Positions 2,984-9,981 of a DNA stretch of 11,855 nt are shown here, in pieces. The stretch comes from Promethearchaeota archaeon (lineage in GTDB: Archaea > Asgardarchaeota > Lokiarchaeia > Sigynarchaeales > SOKP01): positions 1 through 11,855 of the forward strand of contig JAEOTL010000439.1 in the NCBI GenBank assembly GCA_016839845.1, in the 5' to 3' direction. The number at the start of each line of letters is the position of its first letter. Position 1 is the first letter of the stretch. Below the pieces are notes generated by a model, which did no database searches, had not been told where the DNA came from, and saw only the letters and a list, made by a program, of their open reading frames with translations. The position numbers were made by a program, and so were the translations under genes.

Positions 2984-3042
2984 CATATTTCTAAACCTAT
3001 TCATACTGATCTATTCTTTAGGAATAGAAAGTATTATTTATT

Positions 3043-3113
3043 GATGCCACCTTGCGAGTGGAATTCTCAATAAGCTACCACATGCTAGTGTTTCTGCTTA
3101 TCTCATCAACATC
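3043..3113 (-). promoter_or_regulatory. SECIS element of selD copy 1
   Basis: This 3'-UTR RNA structure starts 1 nt after the selD-1 stop codon. Read on the minus strand, a GAUG/CAUC helix closes a junction of two hairpins. Hairpin 1 has AUGA on the 5' side and GA on the 3' side flanking the stem GAUAAGC/GCUUAUU, then an internal loop AGAAA opposite GUA, then CAC/GUG with a six-base loop. Hairpin 2 is CCAC/GUGG. GAAA is typical of archaeal SECIS elements; AUGA opposite GA is the eukaryotic SECIS core (tandem G.A pairs). The element recruits the factors that let the ribosome insert selenocysteine at UGA codon 18. A near-copy follows selD-2. Boundaries come from base pairing by eye, not a folding program. 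Confidence 0.85.
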
Positions 3114-3114
3114 T

Positions 3115-4172
3115 TTAATATTTAGTAATTTCTATGTTCCTAACATCTCCGGAAATTCTAACAAGATCGGGTGTCTCTTTGTCTATTCTACCGACGATCC
3201 AATTACTAATCCCATTCCTTGCTAGTCTCTCTGAAAATTCATTGATTTTCTCTGGATCTATAGCCATAAGCATTCCTCCTGCTGTTTCAGAGCATTTACA
3301 TTCATCAAAAGCGTAGCCCAGATCTTTAGACAAAGCTTCTGAAAGTTTGATAGAAGGTATAGTTTCAATAAGTGCTGACAAATTGGAATTCTGAAGCATT
3401 TCACTTAAATGACCAGCAAACCCAAAACCAGTCACGTCAGTCATTGCATGAATAAATGAGAAGTCTTCAAAAGAATGGATAGTTTCTACAACATTCTGAT
3501 TGGATGTAGTCATTATTTTCACAGCAATTTTTATCGATTTTCTTAATTGTTTTTCAGAATAAGTATCAAGCATTTCAGGGATATCTTTGAGAATCCTATA
3601 TGCGGACATAATGGGTTGTAGACCTACGGGTTTTGTTAATAGTAATTGGTCACCATTCTTAACTCCATATTTGGGAATCATTGCATTTTTATTTACGAAT
3701 CCAGATGCTTCTCCTCCGATTTCCTTTCGAAAGGGATTTCCTTATCGAACAAAGGCCATTTTGAATAGATTGTGTGCCCCCCAACTATCTTCGAATTAAT
3801 TTTTTTCTCAACGAAATTTTTAATTCCTTTAAGAATGCCTTCAGCTATGTACATAGGAGTATTCTTATTAATAGCTAAGAATACCAGCATTCCAGAGATT
3901 TCAGGGACGTTTAATGCAAAAATATCGTTAGTCACATTGTTTGCAGCTATCTGACCCATTATTTCAGGCTCATCAATGATAGGTGTGAATACATCCAAAT
4001 TTTTAACTTGAACTATTTCTGAATTCGGCACGGGTATAATAGCAGCATCTTCGATATCTCCTACCAATCCAGCATTAAACAACAGTTCTTCTAATTTATT
4101 TGGTCCAAGTTTACAGGCTCATCCATGAATTTTAACCGATGCAGTAAGTCTATACTGTTTATCTTTTTTCAT
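3115..4172 (-). CDS. selD: Selenophosphate synthetase, copy 1 (Sec-containing, interrupted by a 29-nt BHB intron)
   Basis: Makes selenophosphate from selenide and ATP, the selenium donor for Sec-tRNA. The reading has two exons: 4172-3750 (141 codons) and 3720-3115 (201 codons plus stop), giving 342 residues, the usual SelD length. The catalytic motif is H16-G17-U18-A19-C20-K21, where U is encoded by UGA at 4121-4119 in the position of the catalytic Cys/Sec. Other family motifs are N-L-D-V-F-T-P (D60), T-N-D-I-F-A-L (D83), G-G-H-T near residue 131, and T-D-V-T-G-F-G at 235-241. Read without splicing, the frame stops at 3693, losing the C-terminal half. Joining the exons restores WPL-IGGEASGF. 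A GAGGTG ribosome binding site precedes ATG 4172. Everything but the intron reads as an intact gene, so decay is unlikely. It lies downstream of a close paralogue of identical layout. Confidence 0.9.
3721..3749 (-). other. BHB (archaeal splicing-endonuclease type) intron in selD copy 1, 29 nt
   Basis: On the minus strand the exon end CCUU pairs with AAGG near the intron end (4-bp central helix). UGU forms the 5' bulge and AAA the 3' bulge. The inner hairpin is UCGA-(U)-AAGG with CCUU-UCGA, 8 bp with one bulged U and the loop AAAUC. Cutting after the second base of each bulge gives the boundaries stated and joins UUG to AUC in phase 0, restoring W-P-L-I-G-G-E-A-S-G. The outer helix is short (UGG with UCG, two wobble pairs) and constrained by coding, so it is the weak part of the model. 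Ligation would be expected from RtcB, as for archaeal tRNAs. Structure and cut sites are inferred from the sequence; no RNA evidence is available here. Confidence 0.85.
4119..4121 (-). other. Selenocysteine UGA codon (Sec18) of selD copy 1
   Basis: An in-frame TGA falls between GGA (Gly17) and GCC-TGT-AAA (Ala-Cys-Lys). This is the catalytic Cys/Sec position of SelD. The open frame continues on both sides, a SECIS element follows the stop codon, and the paralogue has TGA at the same codon number. Confidence 0.93.
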
Positions 4173-4360: not shown

Positions 4361-4412
4361 AAAATTATTTACACAATTAAAGTAAGATAAAATAAAAATA
4401 CAAACAAACGTT

Positions 4413-4485
4413 ACGATGCCGTTTCGCGACGGACCTTTCAATAAGCAACCACAAATAGTGTTTCTGCTTATTTCATCAACATCGT
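4413..4485 (-). promoter_or_regulatory. SECIS element of selD copy 2
   Basis: Same architecture as the copy 1 element, starting in the selD-2 stop codon itself if the extended closing helix ACGAUG/CAUCGU (6 bp) forms. The AUGA and GA core flanks AAUAAGC/GCUUAUU. The internal loop is AGAAA opposite GUU, and the apical stem is CAC/GUG with loop UAUUU. The second hairpin is CCGU/ACGG, where copy 1 has CCAC/GUGG. Two of the four pairs differ by compensatory changes, which supports real selection on the second hairpin. The element directs Sec insertion at UGA codon 18 of copy 2. Confidence 0.87.
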
Positions 4486-5544
4486 TAGATTTTTGTTATT
4501 TCTAGATGCTCAATATCATCAGAGATATGAACAGTTTTGGGTTTGTGTTTGTTATCGATTGTACCAACAATCCAATTTTTTACCCCGTGTTTCTTGAGGT
4601 TTTCGGAAAATTCTTCCGCTTGGGTATGATCAACAGAAAGGAGCATTCCTCCAGCTGTTTCTGGCATTTCAAGTGTATCAAATTTATAGCCAAAATCATG
4701 GGCTAAATCTTCAGTTAGTCTGATAAGGGGTACTTTGTCTATGGTAGCTGAATATTTGGAGTCCTGAAGCATCTCTCTTAAGTGTCCACTTAAACCAAAT
4801 CCTGAAACATCAGTCATTGAATGTACGAAATTGACGTCAGAATATGAATGGATTACCTTTACTACGTCTTGTAGAGGTGTAATCATTAATTCAATTGCGA
4901 GATCGATCGATGTATCAAGTTCTGCGGATGAGTAGTTTTCAATTAGTTTAGGATTATTTTTTTGTAATCGGTATGCTGCCATAATGGCTTGATTCCCAAT
5001 TGGTTTGGAAAGAATTAATTTATCTCCGTTTTTAACGTAATTTTTTCTGATAATTTTATTCTTGTCTACGAACCCCGAAGCTTCTCCTCCGATTTCCTCT
5101 CAAAAAAGAAATTTTTTTGATTAAAGGCCACTCGGAATAGATGGTATGACCACCCAAGACTTTGGAGTTTATCTTATTTTCCATGAAATTCTTAACCCCT
5201 TTCAATATATCCTCTGCTACGTATAGGGGCATATTCTTTTTCAATCCCAGAAACACAAGCATTCCAGAAATGTCTTTGACGTTTAAGGCAAAAACATCGT
5301 TTGTTACGTTAGCGGCGGCAATTTCTCCCTGAATATCAGGCTCATCCAAAATTGGTGTGAAGATATCAATGTTTTTTACCATAACCAGATCTGTATTTGG
5401 CACCGGAATTACAGCAGAATCTTCAATGTCTCCTTTTAAACCTGCGTTAGAAAGAAGTTTGTCTAGTTTTTCACTTGAAAGTTTGCAGTTTCAACCAAAA
5501 AGTTTCGTTTGGAGCGTTAGTCGATAACTCTCTAATTCTTGCAT
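4485..5544 (-). CDS. selD: Selenophosphate synthetase, copy 2 (Sec-containing, interrupted by a 28-nt BHB intron)
   Basis: Second selenophosphate synthetase, upstream of copy 1 on the same strand. The exons are 5544-5122 (141 codons, exactly as in copy 1) and 5093-4485 (202 codons plus stop), giving 343 residues. The N-terminal motif is F16-G17-U18-N19-C20-K21, with U from TGA at 5493-5491. Further motifs are N-I-D-I-F-T-P, T-N-D-V-F-A-L, G-G-H-T-I-Y, and T-D-V-S-G-F-G with D236. Unspliced, the frame stops at 5056. The protein is clearly homologous to copy 1 along its whole length but substantially diverged, so the duplication is not recent. Intron site, Sec codon number, GAGGTGA ribosome binding site and SECIS are shared, implying that all predate the duplication or were exchanged by conversion. 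Whether the two copies differ in substrate or expression cannot be told here. Confidence 0.9.
5094..5121 (-). other. BHB (archaeal splicing-endonuclease type) intron in selD copy 2, 28 nt
   Basis: On the minus strand CCUU (exon) pairs with GAGG (intron end) as the central helix. UAA is the 5' bulge and AAA the 3' bulge. The inner hairpin is a perfect 8 bp, UCAAAAAA with UUUUUUGA, with loop AUUUC. Cutting after the second base of each bulge joins UUA to AUC and restores W-P-L-I-G-G-E-A-S-G-F in frame. The inner hairpin shares almost no sequence with that of copy 1 but has the same 8-bp stem and 5-nt loop. Copy 1 has one extra bulged base, which accounts exactly for the 29 versus 28 nt difference. 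As in copy 1, the outer helix is weak. Confidence 0.87.
5491..5493 (-). other. Selenocysteine UGA codon (Sec18) of selD copy 2
   Basis: TGA sits between GGT (Gly17) and AAC-TGC-AAA (Asn-Cys-Lys), the catalytic position of SelD. It has the same codon number as in copy 1, and a matching SECIS element follows the stop codon. Confidence 0.93.
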
Positions 5545-9477: not shown

Positions 9478-9981
9478 TTAATAACCTCCTTTTCTTATTC
9501 CTGCTGTAACTACCACATTACACACGGTTTCGTCATCTTGATTTTTAATGGTAGTTATTAATTCAGCAAATAGCATCATGTTTTCTTCAACTAACCAAAC
9601 TTTACCCCATTTCGCAGTTCCTGTTAATTTATCTCTGGGTTTTACATCTACACACCCTTCCCAATTATATTTGTTTCCCGCATGAAGTATCATTCTTGGA
9701 TCTTTAATAAGAGGGCGTTCTTCTCCATTTTTAGTTAATCTTACACCGGGAGCCAAGGTGTAGAGACTTTTTATAGTGTAAGCATTAGCATACGCATGGC
9801 AGGCTACGATACCCTCTTCTTCCGAGCCAACATATTTTGGGTCTTTTATACCAAAACATTTAGCGAAATTCACCAAATTTTTGTAACGTACATTAATTTT
9901 AGCGGTACCAGGTAAATCCGTTCCTGGAAGGTTTTCAATGAGAAATTCAGCATTATTCTTTATTTCTTCTATACTTGACAT
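9478..9981 (-). CDS. MaoC-like N-terminal-type dehydratase domain protein (non-catalytic partner)
   Basis: A 167-residue hot-dog-fold protein resembling the N-terminal dehydratase domain of FAS1/HadA-type enzymes. The region near residues 99-125 (L-H-A-G-N-K-Y-N-W, then V-K-P-R-D-K-L-T-G-T-A) matches the usual hot-dog helix and strand pattern of that family. It lacks the D-x-N-P-x-H catalytic motif, which its neighbour has. The pair therefore probably forms a heterodimer, with this subunit shaping the acyl pocket. ATG 9981 follows GGTGAT about 6 nt upstream. About 62 nt separate it from the MfnE-like gene upstream, so it may share a transcript with it, though the functions are not obviously linked. 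Confidence 0.78.
   Translation of the reverse strand: MSSIEEIKNNAEFLIENLPGTDLPGTAKINVRYKNLVNFAKCFGIKDPKYVGSEEEGIVACHAYANAYTIKSLYTLAPGVRLTKNGEERPLIKDPRMILHAGNKYNWEGCVDVKPRDKLTGTAKWGKVWLVEENMMLFAELITTIKNQDDETVCNVVVTAGIRKGGY

Follow-up and report, generated by a model that had tools for sequence, protein, structure and literature searches.

Predicted BHB-type mini-introns in the tandem selD genes of a Lokiarchaeial genome

Introns in archaeal messages are known from the crenarchaeal cbf5 pre-mRNA (Watanabe 2002, cited in Yokobori 2009, PMC2738675), and according to the accessible text of the latter paper cbf5 was in 2009 the only archaeal gene with a confirmed mRNA intron; others may have been reported since. 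The same text describes the cbf5 motifs as mostly unconventional BHB structures with predicted cuts between the second and third base of a 3-nt bulge, and links the hetero-oligomeric type of EndA both to unconventional motifs and to cbf5 splicing. BHB introns are also found in archaeal tRNA and rRNA; within the Asgard archaea, the accessible part of one report gives introns in 92-95% of the tRNA genes of Atabeyarchaeia and Freyarchaeia (PMC11291895). In addition, the accessible text of PMC2738675 cites Peng et al. for 12-bp putative introns in an archaeal virus.

Here we describe two short inserts in the tandem selD genes of a Promethearchaeota archaeon. With a probability of roughly 0.88, the insert at positions 5094-5121 is a BHB mini-intron cut from the selD pre-mRNA by EndA, the exons likely being sealed by RtcB. 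The finding is real and stronger than the initial annotation had stated. Its reading as a predicted BHB-type mRNA intron is supported by a single rule that explains both selD copies, by compensatory stem changes and by other insert-bearing genes, and it is the only reading found that accounts for both copies by one rule.

The selD inserts work like, and most likely belong to, the EndA-spliced archaeal mRNA introns. As in crenarchaeal cbf5 (PMC2738675, accessible text), a BHB-like hairpin with the same predicted cut rule interrupts a conserved catalytic codon region and is gained and lost patchily, and the cutting of an unconventional BHB by hetero-oligomeric EndA would be a further likeness. 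Unlike the cbf5 introns, which measure 33-39 nt where that text names a size, the inserts described here are 28-31 nt long, and whereas cbf5 was the one gene confirmed by 2009, the Lokiarchaeial inserts lie in several unrelated genes, namely selD (both paralogs), rtcB, a dehydrogenase gene and that of a RadA paralog. With the viral introns they share very short length and a place in protein-coding genes; the viral ones are 12 nt, a multiple of three, and in the accessible text splicing is not demonstrated for them. With the BHB introns of archaeal tRNA and rRNA they share the predicted splice signal and the predicted enzymes, but the host RNA is a message and the intron is nearly a bare recognition element. 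In eukaryotes, the XBP1 and HAC1 mRNAs are cut by the non-spliceosomal IRE1 under stress regulation and sealed by tRNA ligase (RtcB for XBP1); the likeness lies in non-spliceosomal mRNA cutting and tRNA-ligase sealing, and no homology is claimed.

Among the open-access papers listed by the literature searches, none deals, as far as titles and abstracts go, with introns in selD or in Asgard protein-coding genes. The accessible text of a paper on the Asgard selenoproteome (PMC11227280) contains selD 34 times, but never intron, splic or frameshift. Within that literature, the inserts described here are new by size, host lineage and gene spread.

The window, i.e. the whole stretch of DNA that was analysed, is 11,855 nt long (contig JAEOTL010000439.1, assembly GCA_016839845.1) and its minus strand carries selD twice in tandem, as copy 2 at 5544-4485 and copy 1 at 4172-3115. 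Both lose frame between the conserved blocks GGHTIYS.WPL and IGGEASGF, and both have an in-frame TGA near the N-terminus, at the expected place of the selenocysteine. Their parts are as follows.

5122-5544, minus strand: selD copy 2, exon 1, with an in-frame TGA (predicted selenocysteine) at 5491-5493
5094-5121, minus strand: predicted 28-nt mini-intron of copy 2, an exact-rule BHB whose removal restores the frame
4485-5093, minus strand: selD copy 2, exon 2; spliced protein 176.7 bits against TIGR00476 (cut-off 125)
3750-4172, minus strand: selD copy 1, exon 1, with an in-frame TGA (predicted selenocysteine) at 4119-4121
3721-3749, minus strand: predicted 29-nt mini-intron of copy 1, at the same codon, with one bulged T in the stem
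3115-3720, minus strand: selD copy 1, exon 2; spliced protein 167.9 bits against TIGR00476 (cut-off 125)

Against a second SelD model, NF010705, the spliced copies score 258.7 (copy 2) and 252.7 (copy 1), under the cut-off of 291. Just past both selD stops (window 3030-3125 and 4410-4495, minus strand) lie similar stem-loops with GATGTTGATGA...AAGCAGAAAC; in shape they resemble SECIS elements, and they matched no Rfam family at its cut-off.

The elements of the copy 2 motif, for which coordinates and fold were recomputed, are these.

5124-5127, minus strand: 5' strand of the central helix, CCTT, in exon 1, from the sequence; pairs with GAGG
5121-5123, minus strand: first bulge, TAA, from the sequence, with a predicted cut at 5122/5121 by the BHB rule (PMC2738675, accessible text)
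5100-5120, minus strand: inner hairpin with 8-bp stem and 5-nt loop, from the fold and the shape scan
5120-5113, minus strand: 5' strand of the stem, TCAAAAAA, from the sequence
5112-5108, minus strand: loop ATTTC, from the sequence
5107-5100, minus strand: 3' strand of the stem, TTTTTTGA, from the sequence
5096-5099, minus strand: 3' strand of the central helix, GAGG, in the intron, from the sequence and the fold
5093-5095, minus strand: second bulge, AAA, from the sequence, with a predicted cut at 5094/5093 by the BHB rule

With slashes for the predicted cuts, copy 2 thus reads CCTT-TA/A-TCAAAAAA-ATTTC-TTTTTTGA-GAGG-AA/A-TCGG, and the insert at 5094-5121 with its 4-bp central helix, two 3-nt bulges, 8-bp stem and 5-nt loop is as the initial annotation had drawn it. 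The central helix CCTT/GAGG is dominant in the partition function, with pair probabilities of 0.95-0.98. Copy 1, CCTT-TG/T-TCGA(T)AAGG-AAATC-CCTTTCGA-AAGG-AA/A-TCGG, can adopt the same arrangement, with each element of the same size; its central helix has a probability of only 0.23-0.43, the minimum being another fold. In both copies the outer helix beyond the second bulge is weak (UGG/UCG pair probability 0.01-0.02), and when folded within 101 nt, copy 2 gains an outer helix whose 4 x 3 internal loop brings the shape closer to a bulge-helix-loop. The weak outer helix of both copies, together with the low central-helix probability of copy 1, favours a relaxed motif over a strict BHB. Since the cbf5 motifs are themselves mostly unconventional, the weak outer helix bars the label of strict BHB and not membership of the cbf5 kind.

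Removal of 28 nt from copy 2 and of 29 nt from copy 1 gives WPL/IGGEASGF and an open SelD frame in each, so that the junction restored is identical in the two genes, as had been claimed, and in both the predicted cuts fall exactly where the frame is repaired. The pairing exceeds chance: of 200,000 shuffles made of each insert, one paired as well at the precise junction. When the window was scanned for this compact shape combined with repair of an otherwise broken frame, it returned the two selD sites only, in 1-2 registers each; with loops up to 30 nt there was one extra, unconvincing match on the plus strand at about 9698-9743.

One element of the earlier interpretation, that the inserts are of independent sequence, is wrong. 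The stems of copies 1 and 2 differ in three of eight pairs, from G-C to A-T on both sides, and are identical in the other five. By sequence comparison, the inserts are homologous hairpins, and the stem changes are covariation within one hairpin.

Other kinds of intron fit poorly. The insert ends read AT...AA in copy 2 and TT...AA in copy 1, not the GT-AG of the spliceosomal type. A group I or II intron was rejected, 28-29 nt being too short; an Rfam scan of the window gave zero matches at the curators' cut-offs.

In the proposed mechanism, the end of exon 1, CCUU, would pair with the intron end GAGG as the central helix, and each 3-nt bulge would set one EndA cut, between its second and third bases. 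RtcB would join the exons at the junction CCU UUA AUC GGA GGA (PLIGG), and the mature selD message would then be read through its UGA as selenocysteine. Copy 1 is predicted to be handled in the same way. We infer that splicing occurs, that both enzymes are present in this organism and that the insert is left untranslated.

Among 83 relatives, EndA-family matches were found in 82, mostly two per genome (two in G030, one in G066), and RtcB in 75. In G046 and in G030, one EndA copy keeps LEHS and VRKK and the other is without the His; judged by the catalytic triad, these copies would fit a catalytic plus structural pair, as in the hetero-oligomeric type. In the 24 stretches fetched, ARAGORN found four tRNA genes and reported none with an intron, so tRNA introns gave no comparison.

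The spliced copy-1 query returned six loci, all in Lokiarchaeota or Lokiarchaeia records. Within the class to which one of these belongs (83 genomes), 81 matched at E 0.001 or better, many of the matches being distant family members, and the site was read at the DNA level in matches of about 57% identity and up, at 59 loci in 57 genomes. None of the 87 selD genes so read carries an insert (81 sites were found intact by pattern, four variants by eye and two were added later). An insert-bearing protein query against the phylum matched 60 of 227 genomes at E 1e-60 or better with no in-frame insert among the matches listed, and the full-length matches listed have open frames of 321-326 residues. 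With 87 of 87 DNA sites free of it and no longer frame among the phylum matches listed, the presence of the insert is patchy. The two selD paralogs themselves are old, being separated by a fully supported split in the tree and standing in tandem in many genomes. At one locus (L053, G001:C283), where the contig ends inside the gene, selD has TGA for a Trp codon that lies three residues ahead of the position of the inserts, perhaps an error or a recoding.

Three protein searches (36, 52 and 88 matches) gave 142 distinct SelD proteins, 125 of which show the site by pattern: 15 with an insert and 110 without, the latter including one ended by its contig and two GGTA variants. The proportion 15/125 is no frequency, because part of the searching was directed at SelDs that are truncated or hold an insert. 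P0001 matches copy 2 closely (98%; NCBI; a cluster of 14 sequences, not necessarily separate assemblies), P0009 matches the copy-1 query (97%; JGI; a cluster of nine sequences, likewise not necessarily separate assemblies), and P0017 repeats the insert of P0059; beyond these three, 12 proteins carry 11 different insert peptides. Insert lengths inferred from the translations are 29 nt (P0011, P0033), 30 nt (P0059-P0066) and 31 nt (P0004, P0021), so that selD inserts overall span 28-31 nt; they interrupt one and the same codon, occur in both paralogs and fall in all three frames. The frame-broken forms fall into six protein clusters, two of which are the window's own kinds. The eight proteins P0059-P0066, with seven different insert peptides, are predicted with the 30-nt insert read through, and they stand out in a search aimed at them (58-73 bits vs 40 for the next match).

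Random indels with no pairing in the homologues would have told against an intron. At the protein level this was looked for by degenerate back-translation, and 14 of 14 insert peptides (the window's own two kinds included, P0017 left out as a repeat) allow both the central helix and the inner stem at the junction that repairs the frame, without any mismatch being forced, and are thus compatible with the BHB. Shuffled insert peptides had means of 2.9-4.2 forced mismatches and zero in 0.3-7.3% of trials, tests that are not independent because the inserts are mutually related. In a quick tree of 169 SelDs, 14 insert rows need 11 changes, at least five of them forced by well-supported branches. 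P0059, a 30-nt in-frame form, is the sister of copy 1 (99 support), and this relationship points to the loss of one base from copy 1 and, by extension, of one base pair from copy 2.

The initial annotation had proposed that the BHB shape be sought in other mRNAs, and exact-rule cases did appear in rtcB, an alcohol dehydrogenase and a RadA paralog. In G030 and G066 a short gap breaks rtcB in two, as was noticed while the ligase was being sought.

G030 L175 4232-4260 (also L124 333-361) and G066 L163 16484-16512: 29-nt exact-rule BHB insert in rtcB, at VGY/DINC
L173 1422-1451 (G030:C200): 30-nt insert with in-frame TGA in a zinc alcohol dehydrogenase, at GICGSD/VHM
L199 3716-3746 (G030:C120): 31-nt BHB-type insert in a RadA paralog, at AIGGN/IVAHG

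The rtcB layout is TTGG-AT/A-CATAAGAGC-loop-GCTTTTATG-CCAA-A(C or A)/A, and removal of the insert repairs VGYDINC. The inserts of G030 and G066 are identical at 26 of 29 positions, the rtcB exons being 74.5% identical with a dS of 2.4, and the two split pieces are the only rtcB matches in these genomes. The dehydrogenase (437.4 bits to scyllo-inosose dehydrogenase, cut-off 450) has a strict BHB with a full outer helix in the minimum-energy fold. The RadA paralog scores 324.2 bits to PRK04301 (cut-off 259), and G030 has two intact RadA genes besides this broken one. A further rtcB gene, at L123 (G081:C300), holds a 30-nt in-frame hairpin insert with a TGA at LPD/AHQGYG, its donor one base off the BHB rule and its outer helix long.

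The tight scan covered 948,767 bases in 147 loci, including many selD and EndA regions as well as the window and the rtcB contigs, which were put in because their inserts were already known. It asked for a 4-bp central helix flanked by two 3-nt bulges, an inner stem of at least 6 bp, loops of 3-9 nt, 80 open codons on each side after the join, and an unjoined frame that stops within 40 codons. Six exact-rule cases resulted, namely copies 1 and 2 of the window, rtcB of G030 and of G066, the alcohol dehydrogenase and the RadA paralog; only the last two, both in G030, were found blind. Apart from one gene overlap (L182), every off-register join was a shift equivalent in frame or another register of the same sites. 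The tight scan gave zero joins in reversed sequence, a weak control where the frame condition is concerned, since such sequence seldom holds long open frames, and hairpins scoring 13 or more numbered 203 in real vs 188 in reversed sequence, so that hairpins as such are not enriched.

A looser scan of 1,545,150 bases in 187 loci, which allowed loops up to 30 nt and flanks of 45 codons, had a clear background. With flanks of 80 or more codons, exact joins numbered 6 vs 3 (-1) and 2 (+1) at scores of 13 or more, and 4 vs 4 (-1) and 3 (+1) at scores of 11-12; with flanks of 45-79, they numbered 9 vs 8 and 7, and 17 vs 11 and 17. Reversed sequence gave 10 exact-rule matches in total. The looser scan being unspecific, only the tight class was used. 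Inspection by eye assigned the looser matches L138, L152, L154, L160, L161, L169 and L182 to gene borders, terminator-like hairpins or short frames; the candidate L113 (27 nt, three G-U) is weak; and 400 kb of G048 held no exact-rule match with a loop under 12 nt. At L217 6316-6341 (G030:C191), a compact 26-nt BHB candidate would lead from a ribbon-helix-helix-like ORF into a zinc-finger-like ORF, with a weak CdrS match only.

Lokiarchaeial cbf5 is unbroken in nearly all genomes listed, G081 alone having a short gap. There (L250, G081:C151) a 32-nt BHB with 131 + 261 open codons around it, a score of 13 and an 11-nt loop was found under the looser limits, which also gave five lower-scoring matches elsewhere in the locus. 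The join reads GGG ACA CTA GAT CCC AAG (GTLDPK) and places the cut in the codon of the catalytic Asp, which is also the site of the crenarchaeal cbf5 introns in the accessible text of PMC2738675. G081 may include foreign contigs.

Of the rival explanations, the one that survives best, improbable as it is, takes the 30-nt in-frame inserts for normal insertions of a 10-residue peptide, and the copies with a broken frame for pseudogenes. P0059-P0066 are indeed predicted with the insert read through, and the dN of copy 1 (0.118-0.134) is somewhat above that of one intronless copy-1 pair (0.076, at lower dS); an intronless copy-2 pair has a dN of 0.133. However, against G046, at saturated dS, copy 1 has a dN of 0.118 (exon 1/exon 2, 0.094/0.131) and copy 2 of 0.128 (0.059/0.165), and such low dN on both sides of the insert in both copies points to constraint. 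Pseudogenes would also leave unexplained the covarying stem pairs, the six clusters of frame-broken forms and the exact-rule, frame-breaking inserts in rtcB, for which G030 and G066 have only the two pieces. A local gene-conversion tract between the copies was considered and is unconvincing, 25 of 30 positions being identical just past the junction vs 13-23 elsewhere.

Translational bypassing is, if anything, slightly less probable again. Here the ribosome would leave the message at a take-off codon, skip the hairpin and resume at a landing codon that matches, as it does in gene 60 of phage T4; mitochondrial byp elements are a further example. A hairpin does lie within the gap, and in copy 2 matched ATC/ATC triplets would give PLI/GGEASGF. 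Copy 1, however, is without a matched take-off and landing pair among the codons tested, the rtcB, dehydrogenase and RadA-paralog inserts follow the BHB cut rule in different sequence, and bypassing leaves the central-helix pairing without a role.

Programmed ribosomal frameshifting across the insert, with the extra residues staying in SelD, is very unlikely. Both inserts break the frame and hold a stem-loop, but the offsets are +1 (28 nt, copy 2) and -1 (29 nt, copy 1), so the copies need opposite shifts, an argument already made in the initial annotation that stands and is extended by the inferred 30- and 31-nt inserts of other lineages. In addition, the unspliced frames of rtcB and the dehydrogenase stop within 3-4 codons. 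An assembly or sequencing artefact is scarcely credible, since, in line with the earlier argument against sequencing error, closely matching inserts are carried by the P0001 (NCBI) and P0009 (JGI) records and errors would not keep pairing.

If, then, the inserts are mRNA introns spliced by EndA, the RtcB product would be needed to splice rtcB's own message, which suggests a self-regulating splicing ligase, and archaea close to eukaryotes would possess a spliceosome-independent mRNA intron system. We consider the chances evenly balanced that Lokiarchaeia harbour a multi-gene population of EndA-spliced mRNA mini-introns of about 26-32 nt, rtcB included, that invade conserved active-site codons and pass between paralogs. 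With such mini-introns, the question of how mRNA introns arose close to the lineage of eukaryotes becomes testable. Gene callers would misread spliced genes of this kind, with frame-broken copies appearing as fragments and 30-nt copies gaining ten false residues.

A last observation concerns P0066 and P0050, both from NCBI, each of which has a longest contig of 9602 bases. They possibly stem from the same contig, with an insert-bearing selD of the copy-2 type adjoining an insert-free one of the copy-1 type.
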